In this document: piece after piece, positions 8,745 to 13,260 of the stretch
Layout: each line of letters starts with the position of its first letter
Numbering within the stretch: the stretch's first letter is position 1
Source: Armatimonadota bacterium
Lineage (GTDB): Bacteria; Armatimonadota; Fimbriimonadia; Fimbriimonadales; Fimbriimonadaceae
Direction of reading: 5' to 3'
NCBI GenBank assembly: GCA_018268255.1
Contig: JAFDWX010000002.1
Location: forward strand, 242,859-275,664
DNA length: 32,806 nt
Notes under the pieces: model-generated
Database searches by the model: none
Seen by the model: the letters and a program-made list of their open reading frames with translations, nothing else
Told to the model about the DNA's origin: nothing
Made by a program: the position numbers and the translations under genes

Positions 8745-10904
8745 CTAGTTGCGGAGGGGTTTCCCGTGTTCCAACATGTGCTTGATCCGCGCCTGGGTTG
8801 GCCCCTCGGCGAGAAGCGTGATAAATCGCTCTCGCTCCAAAGCCAATGCTTCGTCCCACGAAGTCGCCTTGCAGAATATGAACTTCATATGATCGGCGAT
8901 GGTGTTGTCGTACCGAGTGAAGTCTTTGATTTTGGACTGGCCGTCGTCAATCATCCCGGCCAGGGGTCCAGCCGGAACTTTCCACGCCGGAAGCACCACG
9001 GGAGTAGCTTCTGGAAGAAGCTTTGCGGCTTCATAAGTCAAGCTGTCAGGATTAATAGCGACCAAATCTGTGGGGCGAAGATAGCCAAATGTCTTGGCTT
9101 CGGCAGCACTCGTCCCGACCAGACCCTGACTCAGGCGAACCGCCATTTCCACGCAGCCTCGAGCCGTTTCCTGGCTCCTCAGAGCCATCAACGCCGTCCC
9201 TCCTCCGCCCGGGAGCAATCCAACCTTCGCTTCGGGCAACCCGATCTGTGTTTCTGGATGAGCCAGAATTTTTGAGCACGAGGCTGCAATTTCCAGCCCA
9301 GCTCCCAAGCAATATCCAAAGATTGCGCAAATGACTTGCTTAGTCCTCAGAAGGGCCGCGAGATTTTGGAGTTCGGCGAGACCAGCCGTCACTGCTTCCC
9401 AGTTGGATTGCTCTGACTGCGCAACAAAAAAGTTGAGATCATAACCGACCGAAAAAGCCTTGGCCTCGCTGGTCAGCACGAACGGGACCGAAGCCTTGGC
9501 AACCCATTCAGAAAACTCGCGGACGAACTCGGGAGTGATTGAGCCCATTTTCGTCGAAATCGATGCGGCGATGGCGCCGTCCCCCAAGTCACGGATATTG
9601 AACGTCCCATACGGCTCAATAATCGGAAATTCCTGAATGGATCGGTACTGAGGTTCCTCGGGGAGAGCTTCATAGGTACCGGAATGTGTACGCATCGAAC
9701 CGGAATCGTAAAATTTATTCGGTTTCAAACCGAGTACGTCCGGCCCAATGGCGTCGATCATGGCGAAAGGCCCGAGTTGCCAACCGAAACCCCACATCAT
9801 CACTCGATCAAAGTCTAGAACCGAGTGACTGATCTCCTCTTTAATCGAATCCGCATACCGAAGCGTTGGGATAAGGTATCGGCGCAGGAATTCGCCCAAG
9901 TCGTCACCGAGTTTGAGAGCTTCTCGAATACGTTCGCCGAATGGAAGTTTCGCCAGAGCACTTAGAGAAGGCACGTCGGGCTCGCTCGTGTCTCGGTAGA
10001 GCAGGGTTTCAAGGTCTAGCGCCGACTGACTTTTTCCTTCCCGCAGATAGTAACCTCGCCCGCTCTTCTGTCCCAGTGAACCTTGCTGAATCAGGTGGGC
10101 GACGCTGCGAGGAGTGTTAAGAGTGGGCGTGAACTCGTTGGACGGACACCGCGCCTTCAAGTTTTCTGCGATATCCACCATGATATCCATGCCAACAAGA
10201 TCGTTGAGACGGAAACTAGCCGAACGCGGACGCCCCAAAAATGGCCCAGTCATGGCATCCACGTCCTCCAGCCGCAGTCGAAGGTGCTCGGCGACATGAA
10301 CTGCCTGAAACATGGCCCACATTCCAAATCGGTTGGCGATAAATCCTGGGGTGTCTTTCGCAATGACAACGCGTCGCCCCACTCGGGTCTCCAGGAACTC
10401 CTTCACCCGTTCTACTTCACCTGGGTCCGTATCGTTGGTAGGGATGAGTTCAAGAAGTTTTAGGTAGCGAGGCGGGTTGAAAAAGTGTGTCCCAAGAAAG
10501 CGCCGTCGGAATGATTCTGAACGGCCTTCCGCCAGGAGCTGGATTTCAAGTCCGCTCGTGTTGGTGCTGATGATCGCTTCTTCGGGGAGAAGAGGCTCTA
10601 GCTTCTCATACAGAGCCTTCTTTGCGTCCGGCTTTTCGATAATCGCTTCACAAACCCAGGTCGCATTGGCCACAACCCCGAGATCCGTATCGATACCTCC
10701 CAAGGTGAGTCTTGCCAGCGAATCTGGTCCATAAAAATGAGCCGGTTTGACATTTTTGGCCCTTTCAACGGCCGCTTCGCATGATTCCCTCGTCAAATCC
10801 AATAATGTGACGGCGAAACCGAGGTTGCAAAGATGGGCAGCGATGCCGCTTCCCATTGTTCCCGCACCAATGACGACGACCGAAATACCCTCGTTGTTGA
10901 CCAT
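8745..10904 (-). CDS. 3-hydroxyacyl-CoA dehydrogenase / enoyl-CoA hydratase fusion (FadN-like)
   Basis: This 719-residue bifunctional beta-oxidation enzyme has the dehydrogenase first. VVVIGAGTMGSGIAAHL (about 9-25) is the NAD-binding GxGxxG, HFFNPPRYLKLLELIPT (about 141-157) is the HCDH signature, and a second HCDH C-terminal domain follows. The crotonase-type hydratase is C-terminal (about 430-640), with the oxyanion-hole FGYCLGAGLEIA and LPEAKVGLLPGGGGT, which carry the two expected catalytic Glu residues. This domain order (HCDH-ECH) is that of Bacillus FadN and the reverse of E. coli FadB. It catalyses hydration of enoyl-CoA and NAD-dependent oxidation of 3-hydroxyacyl-CoA. The start has AGGA 6 bases upstream. 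A thiolase is not in the window. Confidence 0.93.
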   Translation of the reverse strand: MVNNEGISVVVIGAGTMGSGIAAHLCNLGFAVTLLDLTRESCEAAVERAKNVKPAHFYGPDSLARLTLGGIDTDLGVVANATWVCEAIIEKPDAKKALYEKLEPLLPEEAIISTNTSGLEIQLLAEGRSESFRRRFLGTHFFNPPRYLKLLELIPTNDTDPGEVERVKEFLETRVGRRVVIAKDTPGFIANRFGMWAMFQAVHVAEHLRLRLEDVDAMTGPFLGRPRSASFRLNDLVGMDIMVDIAENLKARCPSNEFTPTLNTPRSVAHLIQQGSLGQKSGRGYYLREGKSQSALDLETLLYRDTSEPDVPSLSALAKLPFGERIREALKLGDDLGEFLRRYLIPTLRYADSIKEEISHSVLDFDRVMMWGFGWQLGPFAMIDAIGPDVLGLKPNKFYDSGSMRTHSGTYEALPEEPQYRSIQEFPIIEPYGTFNIRDLGDGAIAASISTKMGSITPEFVREFSEWVAKASVPFVLTSEAKAFSVGYDLNFFVAQSEQSNWEAVTAGLAELQNLAALLRTKQVICAIFGYCLGAGLEIAASCSKILAHPETQIGLPEAKVGLLPGGGGTALMALRSQETARGCVEMAVRLSQGLVGTSAAEAKTFGYLRPTDLVAINPDSLTYEAAKLLPEATPVVLPAWKVPAGPLAGMIDDGQSKIKDFTRYDNTIADHMKFIFCKATSWDEALALERERFITLLAEGPTQARIKHMLEHGKPLRN

Positions 10905-10975
10905 ATGAATCCTGCGTGAAGCGAGGCAAGGTTACCCGTCGTCCAAAACTTAAAGTGATTCGGTATGTTTGCCGA

Positions 10976-10981
10976 TATAAT
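10976..10981 (+). promoter_or_regulatory. -10 element of the infC-rpmI-rplT operon
   Basis: A perfect TATAAT lies upstream of infC; no clear TTGACA is present at 16-18 bp. Transcription would start near 10987-10989, exactly at the ATG of the 12-codon upstream ORF, so that ORF would be leaderless or nearly so. The start site is inferred. Confidence 0.55.
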
Positions 10982-10988
10982 AGGCGAG

Positions 10989-11027
10989 ATGAAAATGAAA
11001 AACAACTTTCGAGGTGAGCGAAGATAA
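10989..11027 (+). CDS. Putative 12-codon leader peptide upstream of infC
   Basis: An ATG at 10989 opens MKMKNNFRGERR and ends in TAA at 11025-11027. The stop overlaps the proposed infC AUA start as ATAA. The ORF begins about 7 bases after the TATAAT, so its mRNA would have almost no 5' leader. The infC Shine-Dalgarno GAGGTGA (11011-11017) lies inside its last codons. The geometry suggests translational coupling, where ribosomes finishing the leader are placed at the infC start. Too short for homology; the only evidence is its geometry. An undetected frameshift that would fuse it to infC is the main alternative. Confidence 0.45.
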   Translation: MKMKNNFRGERR

Positions 11028-11665
11028 GAGGCTTTCGACCGCGTCCCCAGCGTAATCCGGGTCCCGACATTAACGAGCGCATCCTGCGCTTTCGAGACGT
11101 CCGCGTGGTTGCCGCTGATGGCAGCCAGATGGGGATTCTGCAAACACGCCAGGCACTTGAGATGGCTCGCGACCAGGGAATGGATCTCGTCATGGTTGCT
11201 GAGAGTGCGCAGCCCCCTGTCGTCAAAATCGTCGATTTTGGGAAGTACAAGTACGAGAATGAGAAGCGCGAGAAGGAGAACAAGCGCAAATCCCTCGAGC
11301 TAAAGGGTATAAAGATGAGTCCGCGTATCGCTGAACACGATATGCAGACGCTCCTCAAGAACGCAAAGAAGTTCTTGGAGGAAGGGCACAAGGTTCGGGT
11401 GGTGTGCATGTTCCGACAACGAGAACTTGCGCACTCAGGAATCGGCTTGGAGAAAATGCTTCGGTTCGCCGATCAGCTCCAAGAGGTCGCAGTGACAGAA
11501 CGCGCACCAGCGCTGGAGGGTCGCCAGATGATCATGATTCTCAATCCAAAACCTGGGAAGCCCGCAGGAAAAAAAGATGCCAAAAATCAGGACAAACAAA
11601 ACGGCAGCGAAGAGGTTCAAGATCACGGGAACGGGGAAGATCACTCGACGGAAGTCGGGGAATAG
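11024..11665 (+). CDS. infC: Translation initiation factor IF-3, proposed AUA start
   Basis: IF-3 binds the 30S subunit, prevents premature 50S joining and rejects non-canonical start codons. The product is 213 residues from AUA at 11024. The conserved N-terminal block INERILRFRDVRVV begins at 11069, followed by GILQTRQALEMA, PPVVKIVDFGKYKYE and the C-domain KGIKMSPRIAEHDM...RVVCMFRQREL. The first standard start in frame (GTG 11105) would delete INERI..VRV, and an in-frame TGA at 11015 blocks any further extension. AUA is preceded by GAGGTGA with 6-base spacing. E. coli infC also uses a non-standard AUU start for autoregulation. The 3' end overlaps rpmI by 89 bases and encodes an extra acidic tail. 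Confidence 0.9.
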   Translation: MRGFRPRPQRNPGPDINERILRFRDVRVVAADGSQMGILQTRQALEMARDQGMDLVMVAESAQPPVVKIVDFGKYKYENEKREKENKRKSLELKGIKMSPRIAEHDMQTLLKNAKKFLEEGHKVRVVCMFRQRELAHSGIGLEKMLRFADQLQEVAVTERAPALEGRQMIMILNPKPGKPAGKKDAKNQDKQNGSEEVQDHGNGEDHSTEVGE

Positions 11666-11771
11666 CCACATGTTCCTCAACAAGAGCCACTCGCGACGCC
11701 GACGCCTTGAAGGCGAACCTGTTCTGTTCAAGGGCGAGCGAAAGCGCGTACGACGCATGCTCGTTCTTTAA
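11577..11771 (+). CDS. rpmI: 50S ribosomal protein L35
   Basis: This 64-residue basic protein has the L35 signature MPKIRTNKTAAKRFKITGTG, then RRKSGNSHMF and a C-terminal Arg-rich tail ending RRMLVL. The length is standard. The ATG lies inside the 3' end of infC in another frame, with AGGA 7 bases upstream (in AGGAAAAAAAG). L35 is an integral 50S protein. Its position between infC and rplT is the standard operon order; in E. coli L20 represses this cistron. Confidence 0.96.
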   Translation: MPKIRTNKTAAKRFKITGTGKITRRKSGNSHMFLNKSHSRRRRLEGEPVLFKGERKRVRRMLVL

Positions 11772-11881
11772 ACAGGGCCGGCCCGATTGCTCGACATCCC
11801 CGCCGGATCACCCACCGCTACCGCCAAACAGGCTGGAACCCGGTACCGGCAAGACAAACAAGATAGGTGAAATAGGAAAAT

Positions 11882-12235
11882 ATGGCACGTGTTAAGCGTG
11901 GTCTAATGCGCCATAAGCGCCATAAGAAGACCATCGAAAAAGCGTCTGGTTACTTTGGGCGCAAGAAAAATGTCTTTAGCCGAGCTCATGAGCAAGTCAT
12001 GAAGTCCGGGCAGTACGCTTTTCGGGATCGAAGAGCCAAGAAAAGAGATTTCCGCCAGCTCTGGATCGTCCGGCTCTCTGCGGCCTGCAAGGAATGTAAT
12101 GTGCGCTACAGTGAGTTCATCCATGCGCTGACCGAGAAGGGAATCGACGTGAACCGCAAAATGCTCAGCGAGTTGGCGATTAATGACATGCCTGCATTCA
12201 AGGCGTTGGTTGAGCAAGTCATGGCGAAGGCCTGA
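11882..12235 (+). CDS. rplT: 50S ribosomal protein L20
   Basis: This 117-residue L20 begins MARVKRGLMRHKRHKKTIEKA and has SGYFGRKKNVFSRAHEQVMKSG, DFRQLWIVRLSAACK and a C-terminal domain ending in VEQVMAKA. It binds 23S rRNA early in 50S assembly, and in several bacteria autoregulates the infC-rpmI-rplT mRNA. An AGGA/AGGTGA region lies just upstream. The 110-base gap after rpmI shows no obvious gene. The operon ends at the hairpin at 12257-12290. Confidence 0.97.
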   Translation: MARVKRGLMRHKRHKKTIEKASGYFGRKKNVFSRAHEQVMKSGQYAFRDRRAKKRDFRQLWIVRLSAACKECNVRYSEFIHALTEKGIDVNRKMLSELAINDMPAFKALVEQVMAKA

Positions 12236-12256
12236 TCTGGCCAGAAATCAATCAGC

Positions 12257-12290
12257 AACAGCTCTGGGTCAGTCGATCCAGGGCTGTTTT
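12257..12290. terminator. Terminator between rplT and the cobalamin-domain regulator
   Basis: AACAGCTCTGG (12257-12267) pairs with CCAGGGCTGTT (12278-12288) through 11 positions with one G-U, followed by TTTT on the plus strand. It ends the rplT operon and, because the next gene is convergent and stops at 12289, may work in both directions. Confidence 0.85.
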
Positions 12291-13260
12291 AGTTCGTAAT
12301 GAGATCGTGCCGGGCTCCGTTCCGCGTCGTGGGCTTGCTGAGCACATTTTTGATGCGCGGCATGATGTTCTCGGAGAATTCGATCAGAGATTTCGCCGTG
12401 AAATGTGCTCCTGCGGTGAGGAACGGCTTGGTGTTCTCGTTGACGGGCCGCCCGCCGACTCCAATCAGAAAACCCATGCTCGCGCTCAGCACCCTCAGTC
12501 GGGTTACCAACTCCAGCGTGAGCTCGGTCGATTCTCGGGTTGCGACGCTCACCATCACTAAAATGGGCTTGTGCTGTTCGACAGCACTGATGAACGCTTC
12601 GATCGGGACGCTGGCTCCCAGGTAGATGGTCTTGTATCCGCTAAGGCGCATGTAATCGCTCAGCATTCTCAATCCGATGCTGTGAAAATTCCCCGGGACG
12701 CAACCAAGCATGACTGTGGTGGCATTGGGGCTCAATGGGGATGCGTAGTGTACCACCTTACTCATCATTCGTTCCGTGATCGCGCTGGCCATATGCTCCT
12801 GTGCCACGGTTATAGCTTGCACCTCGTACCAAGTCCCGACGATGGTCATGGACTCGGCCAGGACGTGCTGGTACAACCCCAAAAGGTCGACCTTGTGTCT
12901 AAGCAGGCTATCGACGATTTCGCTGCAGGTTGATTCGTCACTCAGCACCGCAGCTTTCGCGTATCGAAGAGCAGCATCAGGAAAAGAAAGCTGCTCGACT
13001 TCAGGAAAATGAGCCTGCTGAAGGAGCGCTTCGAGAGCGTTGGCAATTTCTGCAGTTGCCAGCGAGTAATACACCTGGCGTCCAACCTTATTGGAACGAA
13101 CGATTGCTCTCGACCGAAGCTTGGACAGGTGATTGGAGACGTTGGGTTGCTTCATTCCCGTGTTCTCCACGATCTCGCTGACGTTCTTGGCTCCTGAGAG
13201 AAGTTGCGCAAGGATCGTCCTGCGAGAGGCTTCGGCTATTTCAACTAATAAGTCCTTCAT
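12289..13260 (-). CDS. ArsR-type HTH regulator with cobalamin-binding domains (CarH-like sensor half)
   Basis: This 323-residue protein has a winged-helix ArsR-type DNA-binding domain (about 1-70; SEIVENTGMKQPNVSNHLSKLR, then GRQVYYSLA). Residues about 90-175 form a helical B12-binding-2 cap and about 180-305 a B12-binding Rossmann domain. The lower-ligand motif is NFHSIG (His193), close to the usual DxHxxG. The cap carries W144 and E155-H156, near the CarH Wx9EH motif but with one extra residue between W and E. CarH/LitR proteins sense adenosylcobalamin and light but use MerR-type HTH; here the DNA-binding part is ArsR-type. The gene is divergent from the acyl-CoA dehydrogenase, its likeliest target. 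The sensing domain is firm; light response is not shown. Confidence 0.85.
   Translation of the reverse strand: MKDLLVEIAEASRRTILAQLLSGAKNVSEIVENTGMKQPNVSNHLSKLRSRAIVRSNKVGRQVYYSLATAEIANALEALLQQAHFPEVEQLSFPDAALRYAKAAVLSDESTCSEIVDSLLRHKVDLLGLYQHVLAESMTIVGTWYEVQAITVAQEHMASAITERMMSKVVHYASPLSPNATTVMLGCVPGNFHSIGLRMLSDYMRLSGYKTIYLGASVPIEAFISAVEQHKPILVMVSVATRESTELTLELVTRLRVLSASMGFLIGVGGRPVNENTKPFLTAGAHFTAKSLIEFSENIMPRIKNVLSKPTTRNGARHDLITN

Follow-up and report, generated by a model that had tools for sequence, protein, structure and literature searches.

A conserved out-of-frame leader ORF overlaps the AUA start codon of infC in a lineage of Armatimonadota and may add a second layer to IF3 autoregulation

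The autoregulation of infC, the gene of translation initiation factor 3 (IF3), is a textbook loop that rests on one odd start codon. In Escherichia coli, the IF3 gene combines the non-AUG AUN start codon AUU with a good Shine-Dalgarno (SD) sequence, shares its operon with rpmI and rplT, and excludes AUG from the start position. In Staphylococcus aureus, an AUA start of infC, preceded by an extended SD, has been mapped by retapamulin ribosome profiling (Ribo-Ret), and autoregulation has been proposed (PMC13009471); the accessible portion of that report does not mention an overlapping leaderless upstream ORF (uORF). The closest architecture that we found belongs to another gene, E. coli pcnB, whose non-AUG AUN start (AUU; Binns and Masters 2002, cited in PMC13009471) lies under a leaderless, out-of-frame uORF of 14 amino acids, which opens at a 5'-terminal uAUG and overlaps the gene by 17 nt (PMC4965119). 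Knockout of the pcnB uATG raised expression by only 10%, and the effects at other genes in the same study ranged from -93% to +52% (PMC4965119). Termination-reinitiation coupling has been described at ATGA junctions, in which stop and start overlap within 4 nt in the +1 frame (PMC6728339). As to the factor itself, an excess of IF3 in E. coli suppresses translation from non-AUG starts as well as leaderless initiation and reinitiation (PMC2268962; PMC9031893), but the data on the need for IF3 conflict, some reports finding that leaderless translation requires IF3 at normal tRNA levels (PMC9031893). An open-access literature search returned no paper on infC of the Armatimonadetes and, within the papers that name both infC and a uORF, none of relevance to an infC uORF.

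The locus described here lies in a window of 32,806 nt, the whole stretch of DNA that was analysed, from a member of the Fimbriimonadales (Armatimonadota; contig JAFDWX010000002.1); three of its close relatives (L032, L033 and L088) are likewise Armatimonadota. Its features are collected in Table 1. infC is the first gene of infC-rpmI-rplT and encodes a complete IF3 with N- and C-terminal domains, for which the best PDB match is IF3 of Thermus thermophilus (E 2e-41). The gene shares with its E. coli counterpart every trait listed above except the identity of the start codon, which is AUA here. It departs from it further in that a promoter of its own stands before it, the leader is very short and a uORF overlaps the start; feedback is assigned to it by analogy. 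It has the AUA start and extended SD of S. aureus infC, a gene of another phylum. In contrast to pcnB, where the uORF stop does not fall inside the start codon and the uATG matters little, the stop and start codons here are interlocked, and in contrast to ATGA coupling, the junction is AUAA or AUAG, preceded by nothing more than a tiny ORF whose peptide is not conserved. A divergent ORF on the opposite strand, which from reading its translation we take to be 3-hydroxyacyl-CoA dehydrogenase-like, adjoins the operon. At its other end infC runs into rpmI, so that the C-terminal tail of IF3 is encoded within rpmI; such an out-of-frame overlap, of 23-176 nt and constant relative frame, recurs in nearly all readable loci of the order.

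Table 1. Coordinates of the infC leader and operon in the window.
Feature	Position	Strand	Basis
-10 promoter hexamer TATAAT	10976..10981	+	sequence; TATA(A/C)T-like box recurs in relatives
uORF MKMKNNFRGERR followed by stop, +1 frame relative to infC, leaderless-type spacing	10989..11027	+	out-of-frame ORF kept in 61/87 relatives
Shine-Dalgarno GAGGTGA of infC, within uORF	11011..11017	+	sequence; kept in relatives
TGA in infC frame, closing the frame on the upstream side	11015..11017	+	sequence
infC start codon AUA	11024..11026	+	position kept; relatives AUA/AUU/AUC, AUG never
uORF stop UAA, its UA being also the last two bases of the AUA start (AUAA)	11025..11027	+	same stop in 29/29 frame +1 uORF genomes
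infC, IF3, 213 aa	11024..11665	+	Pfam PF05198 (E 2.4e-27) and PF00707 (E 4.8e-31), both above cut-off; PDB IF3 matches
rpmI, ribosomal protein L35	11577..11771	+	Pfam PF01632 (E 9.5e-20); overlaps infC 3' end by 89 nt (11577-11665), out of frame
rplT, ribosomal protein L20	11882..12235	+	Pfam PF00453 (E 1.1e-42)

A preliminary description of this DNA had placed the start of infC at AUA 11024, and reading of the codons agrees. The IF3 frame opens at 11018, directly after the TGA, and continues GCG AAG ATA AGA GGC TTT CGA CCG CGT CCC CAG CGT AAT CCG GGT CCC GAC ATT AAC GAG; as had been stated, it holds no ATG, GTG, TTG or CTG between that TGA and the conserved INERI block. The only AUN codons in frame, up to and including INERI, are ATA 11024 and ATT 11069, and GAGGTGA indeed ends 6 nt 5' of the former. 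Reassignment of AUA to methionine was considered and ruled out, since the internal AUA at 11309 aligns with an isoleucine of T. thermophilus IF3.

We compared 104 infC 5' ends from the same order, a sample in which six starts of family f2 were selected manually from the candidates. At the position set by the SD, the start codon is ATA in 68, ATT in 24, ATC in 11, GTG in one and ATG in none, so that 103 of the 104 carry AUA, AUU or AUC at the same place. On a tree of IF3 the start codon has changed at least 17 times, never to AUG. What is conserved at this position is hence only that it is not AUG, which is the pattern expected if discrimination by IF3 is what is being kept, and the E. coli-like autoregulation proposed in the preliminary description gains support from this comparison of genomes. 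AUA had also been called one of the rarest bacterial start codons, yet among infC genes it is no exception: more members of the order start at AUA than at any other codon, it appears by automatic call in 31 of 80 named loci, mostly in Roseovarius and its relatives, and it is the mapped start in S. aureus. The AUA start is thus genuine but of a known kind, and AUA itself is not novel for this gene. The sole canonical best start among the 104, a GTG in family f4, has a weak SD match. In family f2, infC either comes after another gene or is without the short leader and its promoter; no uORF overlaps it, and its start is an AUU or AUC that lies closer to the conserved INxR block.

Absent from the preliminary description is the 12-codon, out-of-frame ATG ORF that opens in the leader and traverses the infC SD, its TAA sharing two bases with ATA (Table 1); a second ATG stands at 10995. 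Its first ATG begins 7 nt after the TATAAT hexamer, a spacing that matches leaderless genes in this genome: over 260 kb, -10-like hexamers peak 6-8 nt before in-frame start codons, and over 140 kb of a relative they peak at 6-9 nt, which suggests the presence of leaderless genes. A consensus scan of the window found no full sigma-70 promoter, the leader having a -10 and no consensus -35, and Rfam covariance models, those for the L20 leader and other families, gave no relevant match over 10500-12600 at E values up to 5. The peptide bears no sign of coding selection, substitutions among relatives falling 40/37/44 by codon position, and its RG(D/E) motif is the SD read in frame +1.

The leader was followed through the 87 genomes of families f1 and f5, nearly all of which have a TATA(A/C)T-like box about 40-58 nt 5' of the infC start. 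We counted as a uORF any out-of-frame ORF that opens at an ATG after the -10 box and passes the start codon, wherever it then stops. Sixty-one of the 87 genomes have one (29 in frame +1, 31 in frame +2 and one in both), as does at least one member of 26 of the 38 genera, and the distance from the -10 box to the uATG is 7-13 nt in most cases. Indeed ATG is the commonest of the 64 triplets in leader frames +1 and +2, where it occurs in 63 of 87 genomes and 27 genera; in frame 0 it occurs in three. The uORF is not essential, since 26 of the 87 relatives lack an ATG version, although some of these have a GTG or TTG one. Leaders without a uATG fold more stably (mean MFE -6.1 versus about -2.8, Mann-Whitney p 5e-6 with kinship ignored), and 22 of the 26 reach an MFE of -3 or below, which may mean that in these relatives a 5' hairpin takes the place of the uORF. 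Relatives that lack the uATG tend to carry a stem-loop immediately 5' of the SD within this short leader, with six loci among the examples, as though the two elements were alternatives. As a separate observation, many relatives have a CCGA-like motif immediately 5' of the infC TATA box (in the window the two span 10970-10981), which could be an activator site or an extended -10 element.

This frequency greatly exceeds that in shuffled leaders and in control genes. Across 500 shuffles of the leaders, 15 genomes had a uORF when mononucleotide content was kept and 31 (maximum 43) when dinucleotide content was kept, against 61 observed; among control genes of the same family with a -10 box, SD and ATG in a like layout, 10 of 49 had one (Fisher p 2e-8), and only three of those at leaderless spacing. 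Both the shuffles and the Fisher test treat the genomes as unrelated. These controls came from family-wide pattern searches, an initial set from 400 kb of two genomes having yielded only five usable leaders. In a fixed window from -45 to -12 of infC, an ATG ORF was found in 57 of 79 genomes of f1 and 6 of 8 of f5 (63/87 together) and in 0 of 15 of f2; at similar A+T, infC leaders from elsewhere had one in 2 of 25 cases (other Armatimonadota), 8 of 46 (Alphaproteobacteria-like) and 4 of 25 (Bacillota-like), such that an overlapping ATG ORF occurs in about 8-17% of other infC genes. As judged from these genome comparisons, the uORF is well supported as a feature conserved in the lineage.

The frame of the uORF and the place of its stop codon are also non-random. 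ATGs avoid frame 0 also among the 56 genomes that have it shut by a stop: they fall in frames 0, +1 and +2 in 3, 19 and 20 cases (p 1e-4), or 2, 13 and 8 when counted by genus (p 0.013). Every one of the 29 frame +1 uORFs stops at +1, as AUAA or AUAG, and in 23 of these genomes the first frame +2 stop is more than 15 nt away. All 31 uORFs in frame +2 end between +2 and +14, and in 18 of those the frame +1 stop is far; in either frame the stop thus comes 1-14 nt after the infC start codon's first base. The association of frame with stop persists when genomes are collapsed to genera (p 5e-5 and 9e-4). On an IF3 tree built with the trait region left out, a strict test of independent pairs had too few supported pairs (three, none contrary), and we therefore used a likelihood test of correlated evolution, which rejected independence of frame and stop (p 2.4e-4 and 1e-5). 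It appears, then, that selection keeps the end of the uORF at the infC start, whichever frame the uORF occupies. With a frame +1 uORF the infC start is always AUA followed by A or G, whereas AUU, AUC and AUAC starts occur only with a frame +2 uORF or where an ATG uORF is absent. AUA would be favored over AUU and AUC under a +1 uORF because it is the sole non-AUG AUN codon able to carry a UAA or UAG stop; the stop cannot be the only reason for AUA, given that AUA occurs without a frame +1 uORF in many genomes and phyla.

We suggest that these features are best explained by an autoregulated AUA start together with a leaderless uORF that is coupled to it by termination and reinitiation, a reading to which we give a probability of roughly 0.62 on the basis of comparative genomics. 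The infC mRNA would begin at or within a few nucleotides of the uATG. Ribosomes would load at this 5'-proximal codon as on a leaderless message, read 12 codons, crossing the infC SD as they go, and come to the UAA within AUAA, where termination would leave the SD and AUA positioned for reinitiation; reinitiation at AUA would then couple infC translation to leaderless initiation. The AUA would be translated with the aid of its strong SD, and its repression by IF3 as a non-AUG start would supply the negative feedback, by analogy with E. coli. We infer in this way that the uORF is translated, for which the selection on its frame and stop speaks indirectly, that it is coupled to infC, and that there is a response to IF3. 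The leader would hence stack three IF3-sensitive steps, non-AUG start, leaderless initiation and reinitiation, on the gene for IF3 itself, and as excess IF3 inhibits all three, all would push infC expression in one direction. More tentatively, and at rather less than even odds, we posit that the leader acts as a three-stage IF3 sensor, each stage inhibited by excess IF3, and that AUA is retained for its second role in the uORF's UAA or UAG stop. In the work on reinitiation, the effect of IF3 is linked by the authors to the absence of an SD, and since infC has a strong one, its reinitiation step may be less sensitive to IF3.

An alternative that we regard as unlikely is plain autoregulation of the E. 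coli type, in which AUA serves merely as a non-AUG codon and the uORF is incidental. The free interchange of AUA, AUU and AUC over those 17 changes, the even spread of substitutions across codon positions of the uORF, and the AUA infC genes of S. aureus and Roseovarius, which have no conserved uORF, are all as it would predict. It leaves unexplained why the uORF is far more frequent than in shuffles, control genes and other infC leaders, and why the stop is placed according to frame, with phylogenetic support. We hold it about equally improbable that the 5'-terminal AUG works without reinitiation, by binding 70S ribosomes, by protecting the 5' end against decay or by masking the SD, and that in other species the leader hairpin has this function. 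The 5'-uAUG of E. coli ptrB acts partly without translation of its uORF (PMC4965119), and the stabler hairpins of leaders without a uATG, as possible substitutes for the uORF, leave room for such a 5'-end role rather than coupling. A mere binding site should, however, be indifferent to frame and stop, and the leaders are not: they avoid frame 0, and in the frame that is used their stops are grouped at +1 to +14. It is very improbable that AUG 10989 is the true start and that ribosomes pass from the uORF into infC by a programmed frameshift: an SD-like sequence does stand shortly 5' of the uORF stop, as in prfB, but no slippery motif was seen, and we reject this alternative because both frames occur among the relatives and each would call for a shift of its own, while the SD and AUN remain fixed. 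Equally improbable is a start at AUU 11069, the isoleucine of INERI, or an assembly or sequencing frameshift that hides an upstream AUG; AUU is itself a known infC start and family f2 starts nearer to INERI, but no SD precedes 11069, AUA and its SD are kept in dozens of independent assemblies, and no relative has an upstream in-frame AUG as its best start.

The overlapping, frame-matched uORF is the new part of this system, and it suggests a second, previously undescribed layer of control. If termination-reinitiation coupling at a leaderless uORF is confirmed, the cell would gauge IF3 by three of its known activities at once, and the choice among AUA, AUU and AUC would gain a testable reason. 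AUAA and AUAG would be the counterpart of the common AUGA coupling junction, one that gene finders likely overlook, since ORFs of this length and AUA starts are both outside what they call.

Two observations beyond infC bear on how general these arrangements are. The peak of -10-like hexamers 6-8 nt before in-frame ATG or GTG codons, seen in stretches from two genomes (G000 and G012), suggests that leaderless genes are common in the lineage. Frame +1 dominates among the control genes too (11 against 5 and 1), and at least two SD-led genes, one of them at G000:C2:186564-186619, carry a short frame +1 ORF that ends in an ATGA overlap; overlapping leader ORFs may hence be a wider habit of this lineage.
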